From an uncultured Clostridia bacterium (GTDB lineage: Bacteria; Bacillota; Clostridia; Oscillospirales; Ruminococcaceae): DNA of 44,205 bases. The DNA lies in contig CAMWVP010000010.1 of the NCBI GenBank assembly GCA_947177735.1, positions 1 to 44,205 on the forward strand. The letters run 5' to 3'. The notes below the pieces were generated by a model. The model had not been told where the DNA came from, searched no databases, and saw only the letters and a program-made list of their open reading frames with translations. Below are positions 32,574 to 39,241 of the stretch, piece by piece (the first letter of the stretch is position 1; each line of letters opens with the position of its first letter). Made by a program: the position numbers and the translations under genes.

Positions 32574-33167
32574 TTATTTTAACCGCAGCTCGGACAGCTT
32601 TTCCTCCGAGACGAACGCCGACAGACCCTTTGTCGTCATTTTCACGGCGACCTCCGTCAGGAAGTCCAGATCGCCCGTGCAGCCGCCGTCGAACCACGCC
32701 GAATACAGCGACAGCACTCCCGAGACCGTAAACTCCGCGGCAGCGCTCAGCGTTGCCTCATCGTCCACGGCTCCGACGTTTTTAAGCGACACCGATATCA
32801 TTCTGCACAGCATAGCCTTGATCTTGCCGTTGCTGAACAGATCGGAGTTGAGCTTCATCAGCCCCATAAAGAACTCCTGCCGCTGCTCGATAACCGCGCT
32901 TATGTCGCGTATCGCCGCGCCGACGTCCAGCACGCTCTTATTGCCGGTGCGCATTATAGCGGAGAACTCGCCGAGTATCTCATTCTCGAGTTCCTCTATA
33001 ACGTCGCTTATCTCGCGGTAATGGCGGTAAAAGGTCTTGCGGTTTATCTCGGCGCGCGCGCATATCTCCGAAACGGTGATCTTTGCCAGCGGCTTTTCCG
33101 ACATCAGACCGAAAAGCGTGTTGCGGATAGCGCGGCGCGACTTGATAACTCTAAGATCGTCAGACAT
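32574..33167 (-). CDS. TetR/AcrR-family transcriptional regulator
   Basis: 197 residues. The N-terminal helix-turn-helix reads KITVSEICARAEINRKTFYRHY (residues about 29-50), the standard TetR DNA-binding signature. The C-terminal helical domain would bind a ligand or form the dimer. The start shares one base with the yajC stop (TAATG). Its place before bioY and the AEC transporter suggests that it senses something related to their cargo, but no operator was identified. Confidence 0.88.
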   Translation of the reverse strand: MSDDLRVIKSRRAIRNTLFGLMSEKPLAKITVSEICARAEINRKTFYRHYREISDVIEELENEILGEFSAIMRTGNKSVLDVGAAIRDISAVIEQRQEFFMGLMKLNSDLFSNGKIKAMLCRMISVSLKNVGAVDDEATLSAAAEFTVSGVLSLYSAWFDGGCTGDLDFLTEVAVKMTTKGLSAFVSEEKLSELRLK

Positions 33168-33556
33168 TACTTGATCTCGGTCTTGCCCTTGGACTTCTTG
33201 CCCTCGATCGCGGGAGCGGAGTTCTCATGCTCGGTATTGCACTTTGCGATGGCGCTCTTTACAACGCGGATCTTGGTGCGGTCGGAGCCCGTCTCAATAA
33301 GCACGGTGTCTTTCTGTACGGACAGGACGCGCCCGATGATGCCGCCGTTTGTGACTACCTCGTCAGCCACCTGGAGGCTTTCGAGCATACTCTGCATCTC
33401 CTTGGTGCGCTTCTTTTCGGGACGAATTATCAAAAACCAGAATATCAGCACCATAAGTCCCAGCGGCAATATCGTCATAACAAGCCCCATAACGCCGCCC
33501 GCAGCGTTCGCGTCGGCTGCCGCAGATGCCTGTGCCATTAACGTAAATAAATTCAT
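33167..33556 (-). CDS. yajC: Preprotein translocase subunit YajC
   Basis: 129 residues. One membrane span (about 26-46, MTILPLGLMVLIFWFLIIRP) runs directly into RPEKKRTKEMQSMLESLQ and then GDEVVT-like VADEVVTNGGIIGRV, the classic YajC order. It assists SecDF and YidC in protein export. SecD and SecF, its usual neighbours, are not here. The start follows GGAGGACAACT. A lysine-rich tail ends the protein. Confidence 0.95.
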   Translation of the reverse strand: MNLFTLMAQASAAADANAAGGVMGLVMTILPLGLMVLIFWFLIIRPEKKRTKEMQSMLESLQVADEVVTNGGIIGRVLSVQKDTVLIETGSDRTKIRVVKSAIAKCNTEHENSAPAIEGKKSKGKTEIK

Positions 33557-33617: not shown

Positions 33618-35171
33618 TTACTGCGCGTAAACGGGTATCCCCGCCTCCTCGAACGCTCTGCGAACATCCTCGAGAGCCGAGCCCGAGAAGCCCTTAACCA
33701 GCACCGCGATCTCCGCGCCGCCAAGCTCCGCCTTAGCCTTAGCGGCGAAGTCCTTTGCGGTCTGATACGCGTTCGCGGCGCCCGAGGGAGCTGCCGCTCT
33801 TTCCGCCGTTACGGTCGTACTGATTTCCGGCTCCCGGAATCCCCCGAGGCTGCTCGTCGATGACGATGCGGGTGGCGTAACGGCACTGCTTGATGAAGTT
33901 GATGACGAAGCAGGCGGTGTAACGGTGCTGCTGTGCGGGGTCGAGGAGCTCTGAACCGGCGGCGCGCTCGACGTGCTCGATGTCGTACTCGACGTACTTG
34001 TCGGTGTGCTTGGCGTGCTTACCGGCGCACTTGATGAGCTTGTCGGTGTGCTCGATGTGCTTGATGTGCTCGACGGCGCGCTTGACGTACCTGTTGTCGT
34101 CGAGCTTGCGGGCGGCGCCGACGTTGTGGTCGCGGCATAGTCGATGATTATCCTCGACTCGCCCGTCTTAGCCTTGTCGGCGATTATCTCCGCGTCGGTG
34201 CAGCTCTTGTTCTCGGCGAGCAGACTCGCGGAGCTAATCTCTATCCACATCTGCGCATCCTTGCCCGAGGCGGCGGAGTTCACCGCGTCAAGCACCGTCC
34301 AAAGCGCCGAGGCGCGCTTAGCCGCGTCGGAGAGCGGCAGATTCTTCAGATATGTCGATATGTCAACGGTATGAAAAGCGGGATAGCGCGTGTCGGCGCA
34401 GATGATATACTCAAATCCCGCCGCCGTAAGCTCGTTTGTGATGTTGGTCATAAACGCCGCCGTCTCCGTCTTGAACGGCGAGAGCCACGGCTTGCCGCCC
34501 TTGGTGGGAGCGTTATCGAGCCAGTAGCCGTCTCCCGTCGCGAGCTCGTAACCGCCGTCGACGCGGTTGGGGTTCGTCCTGTCCATAAGCGTGCTTATCT
34601 TCGCCGCGGGGGTGAGCCCCGCCTTGGTGATGATATCGCTTATCTGTGCGGCAGTGAGCGTTCCCGTTATCGAGTCGGTGTCCTTAACTCCCGCGATGTC
34701 GGTCTTGTACAGGAAATGCCCCGTCTGATCCTTGAGAGTTACGGCAACGACGGTGTGACCCGCGTTCTTTGCCGCGGCAATGGCGCTGTTGAGCGACGTT
34801 GAATTCGCCGCGGCGCTCTCCGGGAGAAAATACATCGCGTCCAGGATATGCGGCTCGTCCACAACGGACGGTTCCGTGGAGCTATCCGTTGAGCTGCTTG
34901 ACGGCTCGGAGGTCTCCGAACCGTCGGAGCTGCCCGTGCTGTCCGTCACAAAACCGGAATCGGAGCTGTCGGACGGATCGGATGTGTATTGCCCTTTGTT
35001 CTGAAAGTACTCGAGGACGGGCTTTCCGATACCGTAGCCGACCACGCCGAGCGCACACGCCGCGAATATCGTCAGAATGACGGTGAGCGCCTGACGCGCT
35101 TTGCTTTTTTTCTTATTGTATAGGTTGAATTTTCTGTGCTTTATTTTGATATTTGTCTTTTTTTGTGCCAT
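33618..35171 (-). CDS. Membrane-anchored protein with DUF4015-like (glycosyl-hydrolase-fold) domain and Ser/Thr/Pro linker
   Basis: 517 residues. A basic cytoplasmic lead (1-26) and a membrane span (about 28-50) are followed by an acidic Ser-rich spacer. A barrel-like domain (about 105-345) has TLKDQTGHFLYKTDIAGV and LTPAAKISTLMDRTNP, resembling DUF4015 putative glycoside hydrolases. A low-complexity Ser/Thr/Pro stretch (about 350-460) follows, then a compact C-terminal domain of about 55 residues. Active-site residues could not be confirmed. It probably acts at the cell wall. The start at 35171 follows AAAGGAG. Confidence 0.65.
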   Translation of the reverse strand: MAQKKTNIKIKHRKFNLYNKKKSKARQALTVILTIFAACALGVVGYGIGKPVLEYFQNKGQYTSDPSDSSDSGFVTDSTGSSDGSETSEPSSSSTDSSTEPSVVDEPHILDAMYFLPESAAANSTSLNSAIAAAKNAGHTVVAVTLKDQTGHFLYKTDIAGVKDTDSITGTLTAAQISDIITKAGLTPAAKISTLMDRTNPNRVDGGYELATGDGYWLDNAPTKGGKPWLSPFKTETAAFMTNITNELTAAGFEYIICADTRYPAFHTVDISTYLKNLPLSDAAKRASALWTVLDAVNSAASGKDAQMWIEISSASLLAENKSCTDAEIIADKAKTGESRIIIDYAATTTSAPPASSTTTGTSSAPSSTSSTSSTPTSSSSAPVSTPSTPTSTSSTTSSTSSAPPVQSSSTPHSSTVTPPASSSTSSSSAVTPPASSSTSSLGGFREPEISTTVTAERAAAPSGAANAYQTAKDFAAKAKAELGGAEIAVLVKGFSGSALEDVRRAFEEAGIPVYAQ

Positions 35172-35201: not shown

Positions 35202-35798
35202 CTAAAAATCAGCAGTATATCCAACCAGAACGTTAAACGCCAGCGAAACGATGCCGATATATATAAGCATTATCGGATATCCGCGGAAAATGCGCGGTAT
35301 CTTTTCCGAATCCAGCCGCTCGTGCGCTATGTTTAGCATAAAGCAGGCGAGGAAGAACCCGATTCCCGTGCCGAAGCCGTAGCCGATGTAGCTCGCGAGA
35401 TCGCTGCCGTAATTGGAGTTCAGGAACAGCGCGCCGATAACGGTGCAGTTGAACACCGCGAGGCTCGCGTATTGCTTGACCTTGCGGAACAGCTTGTGGA
35501 AGAACTTCCACAGTATCAGCAATCCCGCGATATACAGCACGCCGATTATCCCGACGTATATCAGCGGCATATACAGATTCCCGTTCGTCAGCGGCATAAC
35601 GAGTTTGTCAAAGAAGTACGAGACCGCGCTCGCGAGCGTCGTCATAGCGGTTATACCGAACGTAAAGCCTATGACGTGCGATTCCTTACGCGACGCGTAG
35701 ATCGCGACGTTCGCGCCGAACGCCCTGTCGAATATCGCGTTCTGCATAAACACGGAAAGCATTGTCAGACTCACTATTTTTGCAAATATCTCATTCAT
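35202..35798 (-). CDS. rnfA: RnfA-like membrane subunit (Rnf-Nqr family), one cluster Cys missing
   Basis: 198 residues with six membrane spans. The C-terminal part (HERLDSEKIPRIFRGYPI then IVSLAFNVLVG) is clearly RnfA. In RnfA and NqrE two cysteines help hold a membrane [2Fe-2S] cluster. Here the first lies in the GLCPF position but reads FGANVA (Asn30), while the second is kept (Cys118 in FNCTVIG). It overlaps rnfE by 4 bp. The start at 35798 matches the family; the longer frame reads back through rnfE. Confidence 0.88.
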   Translation of the reverse strand: MNEIFAKIVSLTMLSVFMQNAIFDRAFGANVAIYASRKESHVIGFTFGITAMTTLASAVSYFFDKLVMPLTNGNLYMPLIYVGIIGVLYIAGLLILWKFFHKLFRKVKQYASLAVFNCTVIGALFLNSNYGSDLASYIGYGFGTGIGFFLACFMLNIAHERLDSEKIPRIFRGYPIMLIYIGIVSLAFNVLVGYTADF

Positions 35799-36406
35799 AC
35801 GCCGCGCTCCTTTCTCGGAGCTCGTTTGCCCGAGATCCCTCTGCAAACCGCCGCCATTATCCCGACGAGTATAAATCCGAAGAACGGCGATTTCGCCGCG
35901 GGCACAACGGGCTCGCACAGATGGAAGCCGCAGACCGTGCCGTATGCCAGCACCTCGCGCAGCACGCCCACCAGAAACGCCACGACCGCGTAGCCGATAA
36001 CGTAAATGAAAGCGTCCAGCACCATCTCTCCGTAGGGCTTGAGGTAGAAACGCGTTTCCGTCTTGGCCAGCAGGAACGAATTGACTACCAGCAGCTCCAC
36101 ATACAGCATAACTCCCGACGAAACGTTGGGGAACAGCTTTGCGATGCAAAGCGCCGTCGGTATATACATGACCGCCGCGACCACCGCGTACAGCAGGATA
36201 CGCACCGTATACACTATCTTCCGCGGAATAAAGCGGCAGAGCAGTATGCTCGTGTACGATATCAGGAAAAAGCTCACCACCAGCACCGCCGCGCGCTCGA
36301 CCGAGGTCGCCGCAACGATGACGGGCGCGGTAACGAGACCGCTCATGAGCACGATGTTCTGACGCAGCAGACCGTCCGCGCTGACAGAAAATTTACTTTT
36401 TTTCAT
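35795..36406 (-). CDS. rnfE: RnfE-like membrane subunit (Rnf-Nqr family), both cluster Cys missing
   Basis: 203 residues with about six membrane spans. LLRQNIVLMSGLVTAPV and REVLAYGTVCGF align with RnfE/NqrD. The two positions that carry the cluster cysteines in RnfE are Ala27 (TAPV instead of GLCP) and Ser110 (VVNSFL instead of TNCIV). The electron path across the membrane known for Rnf is therefore probably absent or altered. It overlaps rnfD by 14 bp, where rnfG would normally lie between the two. Confidence 0.85.
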   Translation of the reverse strand: MKKSKFSVSADGLLRQNIVLMSGLVTAPVIVAATSVERAAVLVVSFFLISYTSILLCRFIPRKIVYTVRILLYAVVAAVMYIPTALCIAKLFPNVSSGVMLYVELLVVNSFLLAKTETRFYLKPYGEMVLDAFIYVIGYAVVAFLVGVLREVLAYGTVCGFHLCEPVVPAAKSPFFGFILVGIMAAVCRGISGKRAPRKERGV

Positions 36407-37499
36407 TGCGGTCCTCCTTGCGGCGTCTGCGTTTTTTCTTTATCTCGCCGTCGATAGGCGGGGTGTTGAAGCGGTATTTTTCGGGCAGGACTATTTCCTG
36501 AGTATCGGTGAGCTTTATGTCGCCGCGCTGTACCTGCGTCTTGGACTTCTCGAAAGAGTTGATGTACGTCCTCTTCCAGTACACGAGATTTTCGACCACT
36601 CTGTCAAAGCTGCTGCCGAGCGCGCCAGTTATCAGCAGCGCGAACAGGAAGCTGCCCTCGGTCTGACCGAACACGCGGAACATTATCGTTATATAGCCGA
36701 GCACCATTCCGTAGATGACCCTGCCCATTGCTTTTTCGGGCATCCTGTACGGCTCCGCTGCCAGGAATACCACGCCGAACAGCAGATATCCCGAGCTCAG
36801 CTCATAGAACACCGACTGCATACCCGAAACGTTTATCCTCGGGAAAAAGAACGCCAGCACTCCCGCCGTCACAAGGCAGGAGATTACGGCGCAGCCGCTG
36901 TTGGAGCGGTGTATCACCATACAAATGCCGCAGACCAGTATGACAAGAATATAAACCGTGCCGAGCGCTCCCGGCACAAAGCCCATAAGGATATCCCATA
37001 AGCTGCCCGTCGGGGTGTTCCCGAGCTTCAGCGAGTACTCCACCGAACGTGTGAGGATGTCGGTATACTCCTCGAAAACGGGTATCTTCTCGCCGTATTT
37101 GGGCGAGTAAAGCAGCTCTGTCGGATAACAGATTATCAAGAACGCCACCGCTATCGCGGGCGGACAGAATACGATGTTGTCGGAGCCGCCGAACAGGTGC
37201 TTGCCCATAGCTATGCAGATGACCGCCGACAGCGCAACCAGCGCAAACGGCACCGACACCGGCATCATAAGCGCTGCCGCGAGCCCCCAGAACGGCACCG
37301 CCATATCCCTCGGGCTGTACGGTATCCTCCGCATAAGACAGCACAGCAGATCGACCGCCATACATAACACGACGCTCAGCACGCCCACCGCCAACGCACG
37401 CATTCCCTGCAACCACGTCGACAGCACAAGCAACATCGCCATTATCACAAAACGCTCGAGATAGACCTTGTTTGGCTCCCGTGCAGTAAAAATCGTCAT
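36393..37499 (-). CDS. rnfD: RnfD-like membrane subunit with altered flavin site
   Basis: 368 residues, about nine membrane spans. GKHLFGGSDNIVFCPPAIAVAFL matches the RnfD/NqrB core. RnfD carries FMN covalently on the Thr of an S-G-A-T-type motif preceded by Asp. Here the aligned stretch reads LKLGNTPTGSLW (Thr162), so the ApbE recognition motif is not intact. A charged cytoplasmic C-terminal tail of about 55 residues (ending in Lys/Arg clusters) is extra. It begins immediately after the rpe stop. Confidence 0.85.
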   Translation of the reverse strand: MTIFTAREPNKVYLERFVIMAMLLVLSTWLQGMRALAVGVLSVVLCMAVDLLCCLMRRIPYSPRDMAVPFWGLAAALMMPVSVPFALVALSAVICIAMGKHLFGGSDNIVFCPPAIAVAFLIICYPTELLYSPKYGEKIPVFEEYTDILTRSVEYSLKLGNTPTGSLWDILMGFVPGALGTVYILVILVCGICMVIHRSNSGCAVISCLVTAGVLAFFFPRINVSGMQSVFYELSSGYLLFGVVFLAAEPYRMPEKAMGRVIYGMVLGYITIMFRVFGQTEGSFLFALLITGALGSSFDRVVENLVYWKRTYINSFEKSKTQVQRGDIKLTDTQEIVLPEKYRFNTPPIDGEIKKKRRRRKEDRNEKK

Positions 37500-38159
37500 T
37501 TAAAGAGTTCCTTTCAGCGCGGCATTCACCGCTTTCATATCGTCCGCCTTAAACAGACCCGTACCCGCGACCAGGACGTTTGCGCCCGCTTTTTTTGCGT
37601 CCGCTCCCGTCTTTTCGTTGACGCCGCCGTCGACCTGTATATCGAGCGACGGAAAGCCGTTTTCGTCGGCGTATCCGCGCAGTTTTTTCACTTTTTCGAG
37701 CATTTCCGCGATAAAGCCCTGACCGCCGTAGCCCGGCTCGACCGTCATCACCAATACCATATCGCACAACGGCAGGTACGCAAACGCGTCCTCTATCGGA
37801 GTATTCGGCTTGACCGCAAGCGCGGGCGACTTTCCAAGCTCGCGTATGTGCTTCAGACACGCGCCGATATCGCACGGGCTCTCAATGTGGATATCGATGA
37901 TATCCGCGCCCGCCTCGGCGAAAAACCTCGCCTGCCTGTCGGGATTGTCCACCATCAGGTGCACGTCAAGCGGCTTGTCCGTTATGCCGCGCACCCGTTT
38001 CAGCACCGGTTCGCCGTAGGTGAGCTGCTCGACAAAATGCCCGTCCATAACGTCAAAATGTATCCAGTCAACGCCCGCGTCCTCGCAGCGACGTATCTCC
38101 TCCGCCATTCTCGTCATATCGCTCGCCAGCAGCGAGGCGGAAATTTTTATATCGTTAAT
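37500..38159 (-). CDS. rpe: Ribulose-phosphate 3-epimerase, probable AUU start
   Basis: 219 residues if started at ATT 38159. HFDVMDGHFV, DVHLMVDNP, MTVEPGYGGQGF and IQVDGGVN carry the metal and substrate residues of this TIM barrel. The first ATG (38117) would give 205 aa and lose strand one (KISASLLASD), including its conserved substrate Ser. In frame upstream, ATT-AAC-GAT-ATA-AAA-ATT restores that strand, and ATT lies 9 nt after AAGGA. It interconverts pentose-phosphate-pathway sugars. It lies 5 bp after the phosphatase gene. Confidence 0.92.
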   Translation of the reverse strand: MNDIKISASLLASDMTRMAEEIRRCEDAGVDWIHFDVMDGHFVEQLTYGEPVLKRVRGITDKPLDVHLMVDNPDRQARFFAEAGADIIDIHIESPCDIGACLKHIRELGKSPALAVKPNTPIEDAFAYLPLCDMVLVMTVEPGYGGQGFIAEMLEKVKKLRGYADENGFPSLDIQVDGGVNEKTGADAKKAGANVLVAGTGLFKADDMKAVNAALKGTL

Positions 38160-38164
38160 AGCTA

Positions 38165-39241
38165 TCAGTCCTTTTTGACCGCAATAAGCGGAATTATCAT
38201 CTCGTCCTTAGTCAGCCCCGCGTGTGCGCCGACAAAGTTTTTGCTGTCCATATTGTATATCGAAACATCGTCGATCGCAACCGCGATATAGTCGCCCAGC
38301 ATTCCGTCAAAGTGCGGGTGCGGAGCTCCCTTGCCGAACAACTGCCGCTCCTTGACCTCCGCCTTTGACATCAGCATAAACTTCCCATCAAAATGCTCCT
38401 TGAACGCCGCTTTTAGCTGCTCCTCCATTCCGTCCTTAACGAACAGGTTAAGGCAGCGCGGCTCTATCGACGGCATTCTCACCAGACACTCCATTATATC
38501 GGGATAGTGCGTAACTACCGCCTTCGGGCTGTCGATATGCCCGTGATCCGCCGTGATGAGAAGCAGCGTATCGGTCAGCTCATTAGCAAGCTCCTCGACC
38601 GCTTTTTCAAGCTCGCGAACCTTAGTCTTTGCAGACTCGCCGAAGCAGCCCTTGCGGTGCATTACGGTATCGGGCTGATCCCAATACGCATGAATGTACT
38701 TTTCGCCGTCCTCCGCGCACAGACGCTTGATCTCGCGGCAGAACGCGCCGAAATCCTCGGGATAAGGCTCGGTAAACGGCGCGCGATAGTGCGCTCCAAA
38801 GCCCGCGTCCTTTATACGGTCGTAGATACTCCAATAAGGCACATACTTCCATGCAAGTCTCTCGCCATTTATATCAACAAAATACTCAATGTTCTCATCG
38901 ACCTCGGGAAAATAGCACGACCAGCCCAGCCACGCCGACTGCACGGGGAAAAGCCCGCTGTCCATTGCCGTAGTCGCGGCGACGGTGGTCGGCGGAAACA
39001 CCGAGGAATACGTCCCCACGAGATGACTGCGAAAAAAGCCGTCGGGCGCGAGATTCGCCTCGATGATATTATTGCCCATTCCGTCCAAAAGCAACACTAC
39101 AACATTCTTATATCGTCTCTCCGAAAGCAGACTGTCCGCGAGCGACAAACCGGGATTGGGCGGCGTAACTCCGAAATGCTTCATCACCGAGCAGGAGAGG
39201 TTGGCTATACAATTGTCATAATCGGGATATAAAATTTCCAT
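38165..39241 (-). CDS. Alkaline-phosphatase-superfamily hydrolase (type I phosphodiesterase-like)
   Basis: 358 residues. The two-metal site is visible: LLLDGMG (first Asp), the nucleophile Thr in FPPTTVAAT, DQPDTVMH, TADHGH and GAHAG. This is the layout of nucleotide pyrophosphatase/phosphodiesterases and related cofactor-independent enzymes. There is no signal peptide, so it is probably cytoplasmic. The substrate is not evident. It is first in the ten-gene minus-strand run with its promoter at 39308-39336. Confidence 0.87.
   Translation of the reverse strand: MEILYPDYDNCIANLSCSVMKHFGVTPPNPGLSLADSLLSERRYKNVVVLLLDGMGNNIIEANLAPDGFFRSHLVGTYSSVFPPTTVAATTAMDSGLFPVQSAWLGWSCYFPEVDENIEYFVDINGERLAWKYVPYWSIYDRIKDAGFGAHYRAPFTEPYPEDFGAFCREIKRLCAEDGEKYIHAYWDQPDTVMHRKGCFGESAKTKVRELEKAVEELANELTDTLLLITADHGHIDSPKAVVTHYPDIMECLVRMPSIEPRCLNLFVKDGMEEQLKAAFKEHFDGKFMLMSKAEVKERQLFGKGAPHPHFDGMLGDYIAVAIDDVSIYNMDSKNFVGAHAGLTKDEMIIPLIAVKKD

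Follow-up and report, generated by a model that had tools for sequence, protein, structure and literature searches.

What does an Rnf-like membrane module do when only its D, E and A subunits are present and most of the residues that hold its cofactors are gone? This question is raised by three overlapping genes for RnfD-, RnfE- and RnfA-like proteins in a stretch of 44,205 nucleotides (contig CAMWVP010000010.1, assembly GCA_947177735.1) from an uncultured, gut-type Clostridia bacterium of the Ruminococcaceae; the whole stretch was analysed and is called the window here. A sequence-only reading had taken these genes for a reduced form of the cell's Rnf. Judging from profiles, alignments and a tree of D, the D-E-A set is an old paralog and not a worn-down copy of that complex. 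It is very likely a cofactor-poor paralog that should not be called an Rnf, and probably a former redox pump that has been turned to another use. The elements concerned are the following.

36393..37499, minus strand: D subunit, a paralog of the RnfD/NqrB family, 368 amino acids (PF03116, 163 bits)
36435..36518, minus strand: C-terminal tail of D, residues 328-355, with the core LTDTQEI...NTPPIDG (from column conservation)
35795..36406, minus strand: E subunit, RnfE-like (PF02508, 76 bits; residue tables)
35202..35798, minus strand: A subunit, RnfA-like (PF02508, 80 bits; residue tables)

The D-E-A set and the complete Rnf of the same genome

D and E overlap by 14 bases and E and A by 4 bases, all on the minus strand, and the first base of D adjoins the stop codon of rpe, in agreement with the rnfD-rnfE-rnfA order between rpe and a DUF4015-like gene that had been read from the letters. 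The three proteins pass the curated Pfam cut-offs for PF03116 or PF02508, but in the NCBIfam Rnf models they stay far under the cut-offs (rnfD 83 bits against 207, rnfE 41 against 213, rnfA 78 against 229). D contains PF03116 only, with no PF00175 domain in a Pfam search up to an E-value of 1. RnfB, RnfC and RnfG had been reported as missing from the window, and indeed neither tblastn nor profiles gave a significant match to them there; no redox gene was seen at the locus, rnfC in relatives excepted.

The genome-wide search for rnfB, rnfC, rnfG and apbE that had been recommended turned up a complete rnfCDGEAB operon, in the order C-D-G-E-A-B, on contig C63 of the same genome (G000, 98.96% complete); the genome also has two ApbE genes. 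The C, D, E, A and B proteins of C63 exceed the NCBIfam subfamily cut-offs, while G reaches 57 bits to rnfG (cut-off 102) and exceeds the FMN_bind cut-off. This operon is separate and has its own D, E and A, with which the window set shares 24% (D), 28% (E) and 24% (A) identity, so the view that the window holds a reduced form of the cell's Rnf is not supported. Nor is C63 a second locus that lends B, C and G to the window set with a matching phylogeny, a case that the sequence-only reading had raised against itself, for the tree places the window D apart from the whole group of 21 canonical D. The canonical loci fetched from other genomes contain C, D, E, A and B in 20 of 20 cases and a G match in 16 of 20.

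The D tree was built from 64 sequences, 21 canonical and 43 paralog, and a branch with a support of 96/98 splits the two groups. On one side of a further branch (97/84) lie 41 of the 43 paralogs; the D proteins of loci L045 and L048 fall between the groups, where their place is uncertain. The near-complete genome G216, which consists of two contigs, has a paralog-type D only (220 bits to PF03116), at a locus with the order rpe-C-D-E-A (L106, G216:C1, 5314-9181), and no canonical RnfD, which indicates that the paralog set is independent of the canonical one. Comparison of the window with three close relatives gave a dN/dS of 0.08-0.11 in D, 0.10-0.15 in E, 0.07-0.08 in A and 0.20-0.28 in the DUF4015-like gene, and these low values indicate that all four genes are under constraint.

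In the window's genome, FMN_bind was found on C63 and C186 only and not at the D-E-A locus, in a search that covered the NqrC-like genes among the Na+-NQR partners. On C186 (L065, G000:C186, 2208-4754), an FMN_bind domain is joined to a ferric-reductase-like membrane part that scores under the Pfam cut-off, and it adjoins an ApbE gene; the two are a probable separate flavinylated electron-transfer pair.

Cofactor sites and residues of the proposed Na+ path

Residues are numbered as in C. tetanomorphum for RnfD (PMC9588780) and as in A. woodii for RnfA and RnfE (PMC11889175), and they were mapped through alignments to the PDB structures. The window residues that align with the four [2Fe-2S] cysteines are E Ala27, E Ser110, A Asn30 and A Cys118, just as had been read, so that A Cys118 is the only cluster cysteine left; the Asn that precedes it is also kept. 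Among the relatives, each of the two E cysteines is found in 0 of 42 sequences and the first A cysteine in 0 of 41, a loss that runs through a coherent clade. In D, the FMN-bearing Thr153 is Thr in 2 of 43 sequences, and the pocket residues Arg130, Glu185 and Ser284 remain in 0, 1 and 0 of 43, respectively. The flavin motif of RnfD is lost from the window protein as had been claimed, but LGNTPTG is not its replacement: the aligned site lies about nine residues upstream, in ...LTRSVEYSLK..., with Ser in the column. Among the residues of A that contact RnfB, Arg154 and Glu158 are mostly replaced and Lys32 is mostly Arg. By these alignments, most of the FMN and [2Fe-2S] ligands are lost in the D-E-A paralogs.

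The residues of the proposed Na+ path in A and E are retained at a higher rate than other near-invariant positions. A Asn112 is kept in 40 of 41 sequences, E Arg67 in 38 of 42, E Asn107 in 36 of 42 and E Glu115 in 27 of 42, including all 18 members of the window's genus; the window E thus keeps both the Arg and the Glu of the R67-E115 pair. An acid is found at D Asp248 in 41 of 43 sequences, and it is Glu in the genus. As a background we used the retention of positions that are near-invariant in 21 canonical sequences, in 20000 draws that ignore sequence relatedness. The seven Na+-path residues (PMC11889175) have a mean retention of 0.75 versus 0.41 (108 of 20000 draws as high), and 0.94 versus 0.40 within the genus alone (13 of 20000); the residues were named from papers, yet the residue table was already known before the draws. 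A Leu22 and A Thr111 were omitted because they are not near-invariant in the 21 canonical sequences. For the four FMN-pocket residues, the mean retention was 0.02 versus 0.41 (3 of 20000 draws as low).

In addition to these changes, D has a conserved C-terminal tail. Its residues 328-355 show a mean column identity of 0.86 in the genus, compared with 0.73 for residues 12-310, a level reached by 2 of 341 segments of equal size, the tail itself counted. The string DTQE(I/L) is present in 18 of 18 genus D proteins, in 3 of 25 other paralog D proteins (all from g28) and in 0 of 21 canonical ones. The TDTQE core resembles a possible docking or phosphorylation motif; as for the phospho-threonine idea, the genome has one FHA domain match, near the start of contig C62.

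Related loci and their distribution

The flanking genes of the window locus, which recur in relatives, are as follows.

37500..38117, minus strand: rpe, ribulose-phosphate 3-epimerase, the gene upstream of D (TIGR01163, 231 bits)
33618..35171, minus strand: DUF4015-like protein, 517 amino acids (PF13200, 32.2 bits)
33167..33556, minus strand: yajC (TIGR00739, 88 bits; synteny)

The DUF4015 gene starts 30 bases past A and is followed by yajC and a TetR-type regulator. We read 19 loci of the genus cluster and removed two whose contigs, being equal in length to others, were taken as duplicates; the 17 distinct loci besides the window come from 15 same-genus genomes and two metagenome-assembled genomes that the tree places inside the genus, and all of them have the order rpe-D-E-A-DUF4015. 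In other genera of the order, a further 25 loci were chosen, not at random, for spread among second or high-scoring D copies. Of these, 24 have rpe upstream of D, and 17 have DUF4015 after A (partially in L046, at the contig end); in 12 the space between rpe and D holds an rnfC-like gene, and another 12 have no C. Locus L045 (G055:C18, 5931-8173) is a lone rnfC-rnfD pair with no rpe, E, A, G or B alongside; its C contains both [4Fe-4S] motifs, and a tRNA methyltransferase gene follows. The contigs of L046 and L048 end inside or just past the cluster.

At these 25 loci, models made from single sequences gave neither RnfB nor RnfG as the best match of any reading frame, and D and E abut, leaving no space for G. 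The RnfG profile is a weak one: among 20 canonical operons it exceeds 60 bits in 7 and gives a match of any strength in 16, so that the absence of G rests mainly on the abutting of D and E. On the D tree, one change suffices for the C label and one for the DUF4015 label, so that C may have been lost just once in the ancestry of the window. The relatives with an rnfC-like gene point to a C-D-E-A stage that may have preceded the window's genus, which then lost C.

The rnfC-like proteins of the related loci have all eight cysteines of the two [4Fe-4S] clusters in 13 of 13 cases. The GLGGAG string is found in none of the 13, compared with an exact match in 11 of 20 canonical C, and the N-terminal barrel is absent from four; the six that were scanned with Pfam contain Complex1_51K (22-56 bits, cut-off 31) and Fer4-type domains. 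At D Asn124, a position of the riboflavin/Na+ site, Asn is kept in 12 of 13 C-bearing loci versus 6 of 30 C-less ones, and all 18 genus members have Cys or Ser there. The C-bearing forms may therefore hold a partial electron path, while such a path is probably missing from the window's genus, given its Cys or Ser at this position.

Within the same genus (37 genomes), a divergent D was found in 36 genomes and a canonical-type D in 31; five of the six without a canonical D are less than 90% complete. Searching a class sample of 392 genomes with a profile of 21 paralog D proteins gave 11 best matches of at least 321 bits, all from f1 and f24, two families of the window's order, and the match at rank 12 (286 bits) came from a genome with a single D. 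In a phylum sample of 199 genomes, nothing exceeded 263 bits except the window's own genome, so that neither sample contained an equally strong match outside the order. The D-E-A set was found in three other families of the order; besides f24, core paralogs were seen in f23 (L044) and f5 (L046). Two D matches are present in 29 of the 33 f1 genomes listed, a count that leaves out six matchless genomes whose family is unstated. Three genomes of the f1 genus g26 have one D each, of canonical type (371-373 bits), G280 (f1) has no D match, and the second D copy of G217 reaches 118 bits. These statements on distribution concern clear paralogs, since the profile score alone fails to separate weak paralogs from canonical D: the D of L048 (G050) scores 215 bits, as canonical D proteins do. 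Of the additional D copies that other families of the order have (e.g. f14, f19, f20 and f21), L045 and L048 are the two that were examined.

The DUF4015-like protein exceeds the PF13200 cut-off of 27 bits, covers profile positions 3-157 of 313 and is single in the window's genome. Its model has a basic N-terminal segment, one predicted helix (24-45), Ser/Thr-rich linkers and a glycosidase-like barrel, and the protein is thus predicted to be such a barrel with a membrane anchor. DUF4015 occurs in 14 of 32 genomes searched and lies at the D-E-A locus in 10 of these 14; among the f1 genomes of this set, it is at the locus in all eight that have the paralog and in none of the four that do not. 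Catalysis appears doubtful from the sequence because 17 of the 18 genus members, among them the window, lack the acid that aligns with the 4s1a motif F-D-Y-x-R-F-P; some of them, again including the window, have an acid one residue off. PMC12700454 mentions a fusion of the DUF4015 domain to YkyA. In another setting, a full-length DUF4015 gene (PF13200, 176 bits) was observed directly past a canonical rnfB at L149 (G046:C43, 277-1512), in a genome without a D-E-A paralog.

At locus L044 (G058:C22, 10896-12913), genes for SpoIIP and a germination protease lie upstream of rpe-D-E-A, and the genes upstream of rpe differ at L098, L110 and L105, the three others scanned. A link to sporulation was dropped as the sporulation marker SpoIVA is present in 64 of 65 genomes, a selection that included both carriers and non-carriers of the paralog, which leaves the comparison powerless.

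Possible roles of the D-E-A complex

With the cluster and the covalent flavin apparently gone and the channel residues preferentially kept, the simplest reading is that the A/E pair switches or conducts with no electrons involved. In this arrangement, the D, E and A products would assemble as a complex in which the A/E pair moves or gates an ion or a small solute without electron drive, D would be a scaffold that holds A/E, with its new conserved tail as a docking site, and the membrane-anchored DUF4015 barrel would stand outside, at about the former place of RnfG, and tie the complex to the cell wall. From sequence comparison, the D-E-A complex is probably non-redox. We put the chances of a cofactor-poor complex with A/E still switching or conducting and DUF4015 as an outside partner at about even. 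A transport or gating role for D-E-A is suggested more tentatively, and we offer with slightly more reserve the specific picture of an Rnf/Nqr-type core that has dropped electron transfer and become an ordinary alternating-access transporter for an ion or solute, or a gate coupled to the wall, in either case linked to a glycosidase-like barrel outside the cell. The claim that redox activity was lost or the module recruited elsewhere thus gains support from the redox-site loss in a coherent clade and from these signs of another membrane task.

Several observations weigh against such a switching or conducting complex. A Thr111, which PMC11889175 names in the Na+ path, is kept in 0 of 41 sequences, 16 of 18 genus members have Phe in place of A Leu22, E Glu115 is found in only 2 of 11 C-bearing relatives tabulated, and the hydrophobic gate residues may be kept for packing alone. 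The second A cysteine (A Cys113) is kept in 24 of 41 sequences, the window included, and 30 of 43 D proteins have Ser in the column of the FMN-bearing residue, so that flavinylation is possible by sequence. The loss of the FMN pocket within the genus alone is ordinary against the background (1316 of 20000 draws as low). The AlphaFold2 model of D (five rows) has a mean pLDDT of 42.9, which makes it unusable, and no docking was seen. Finally, the six C-bearing f24 loci that were read have no DUF4015 after A, so the tie is not universal.

The set could instead be a redox device of another kind, in which D holds a non-covalent flavin and receives electrons from a partner, an rnfC-like protein in the relatives and an unlinked protein here. 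The eight [4Fe-4S] cysteines of the related C proteins, the link between D Asn124 and C-bearing loci, the acid at D Asp248, the two ApbE genes of the genome and its separate FMN_bind/ferric-reductase-like protein all speak for it. However, the genus locus has no C, Asn124 is replaced throughout the genus, most FMN-pocket and Fe-S ligands are gone, the related C proteins have no GLGGAG and four of them no N-terminal barrel, and rnfC in relatives is the one redox gene seen at the locus; we consider this device improbable. Somewhat less improbable, yet still unlikely, is an envelope scaffold or regulator with zero transport, in which D-E-A would anchor and position the DUF4015 barrel for work on peptidoglycan or surface glycans. 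The missing 4s1a-motif acid makes catalysis by that barrel doubtful, a mere anchor leaves the retention of A Asn112 and E Arg67 unexplained, and the f24 loci without DUF4015 count against this role as well. Decay of an rnf operon that had once been duplicated would account for the absence of B and G, for the lack of C at part of the loci and for the E reading frame of just 134 amino acids at L044. The D frames are at least 320 amino acids long in 43 of the 43 loci used, D, E and A evolve at dN/dS of 0.07-0.15 and the set is kept across dozens of genomes, so that decay is highly implausible and already contradicted for the window's genus.

The window D, E and A belong to the same families as those of Rnf (RnfABCDGE; C. 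tetanomorphum 7ZC6, A. woodii 9ERI) over most of their length and have the same relative order. Canonical E and A align to the 7ZC6 and 9ERI structures, and the window shares the A and E Asn and the E Arg/Glu of the proposed Na+ path. In contrast to Rnf, the window locus has no B, G or C, has lost three of the four [2Fe-2S] cysteines and the FMN pocket of D, and adds the conserved D tail and the DUF4015 neighbour. The Na+-NQR subunits NqrB, NqrD and NqrE are of the same protein families, but the cofactor ligands are lost in the window and no FMN_bind (NqrC-like) gene is at the locus. According to Meheust et al. 2021 (PMC8238504) and a 2024 preprint (PMC10979944), NQR/RNF-like systems also include partial Nqr/Rnf clusters in which the flavinylation Thr of the D-like protein is not conserved. 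These systems pair a PF00175-bearing RnfD-like protein with an RnfG-like flavoprotein, whereas the window has a D without PF00175, no G, and retains E and A. In Faecalibacterium duncaniae A2-165, the rnfDEA genes (CG447_09840-830) are the same three without C, G and B, a likeness drawn from gene names alone, and the strain has a second operon, rnfCDGEAB, as does the window's genome; PMC10781979 assigns both to energy conservation and presumes rnfDEA to be redox-active, as part of a membrane NADH:ferredoxin oxidoreductase. The literature searched, with most subscription journals outside it, yielded no account of a cofactor-less D-E-A set.

These findings touch on the ion route of Rnf, which is disputed. 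PMC11889175 describes the A/E pair as the Na+ channel, alternating between inward and outward states under [2Fe-2S] control, with RnfD serving electron transfer only; PMC9588780 describes an ion path in RnfD, and PMC12174285, which does not use the word paralog, regards RnfD as akin to ammonium/urea transporters. A natural D/E/A core that is without most redox ligands and under strong selection provides a direct test bed for this question. If the transporter or gate reading is true, the A/E pump of Rnf is able to run uncoupled from redox chemistry. Furthermore, caution is called for before gut-Clostridia genes with rnfD, rnfE and rnfA annotations are counted as an energy-conserving Rnf, as was done for the Faecalibacterium rnfDEA in PMC10781979.

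Among the flanking genes, yajC is the kept downstream neighbour in g1 and g28 and probably lies outside the D-E-A complex. Where the full-length rpe frame (window 37500-38170) would be expected to start (INDIKISASLLASDM), it lacks an ATG, GTG or TTG codon; the rpe of a close relative, L040, has ATG at the equivalent start, and the start in the window is possibly ATT or ATA.

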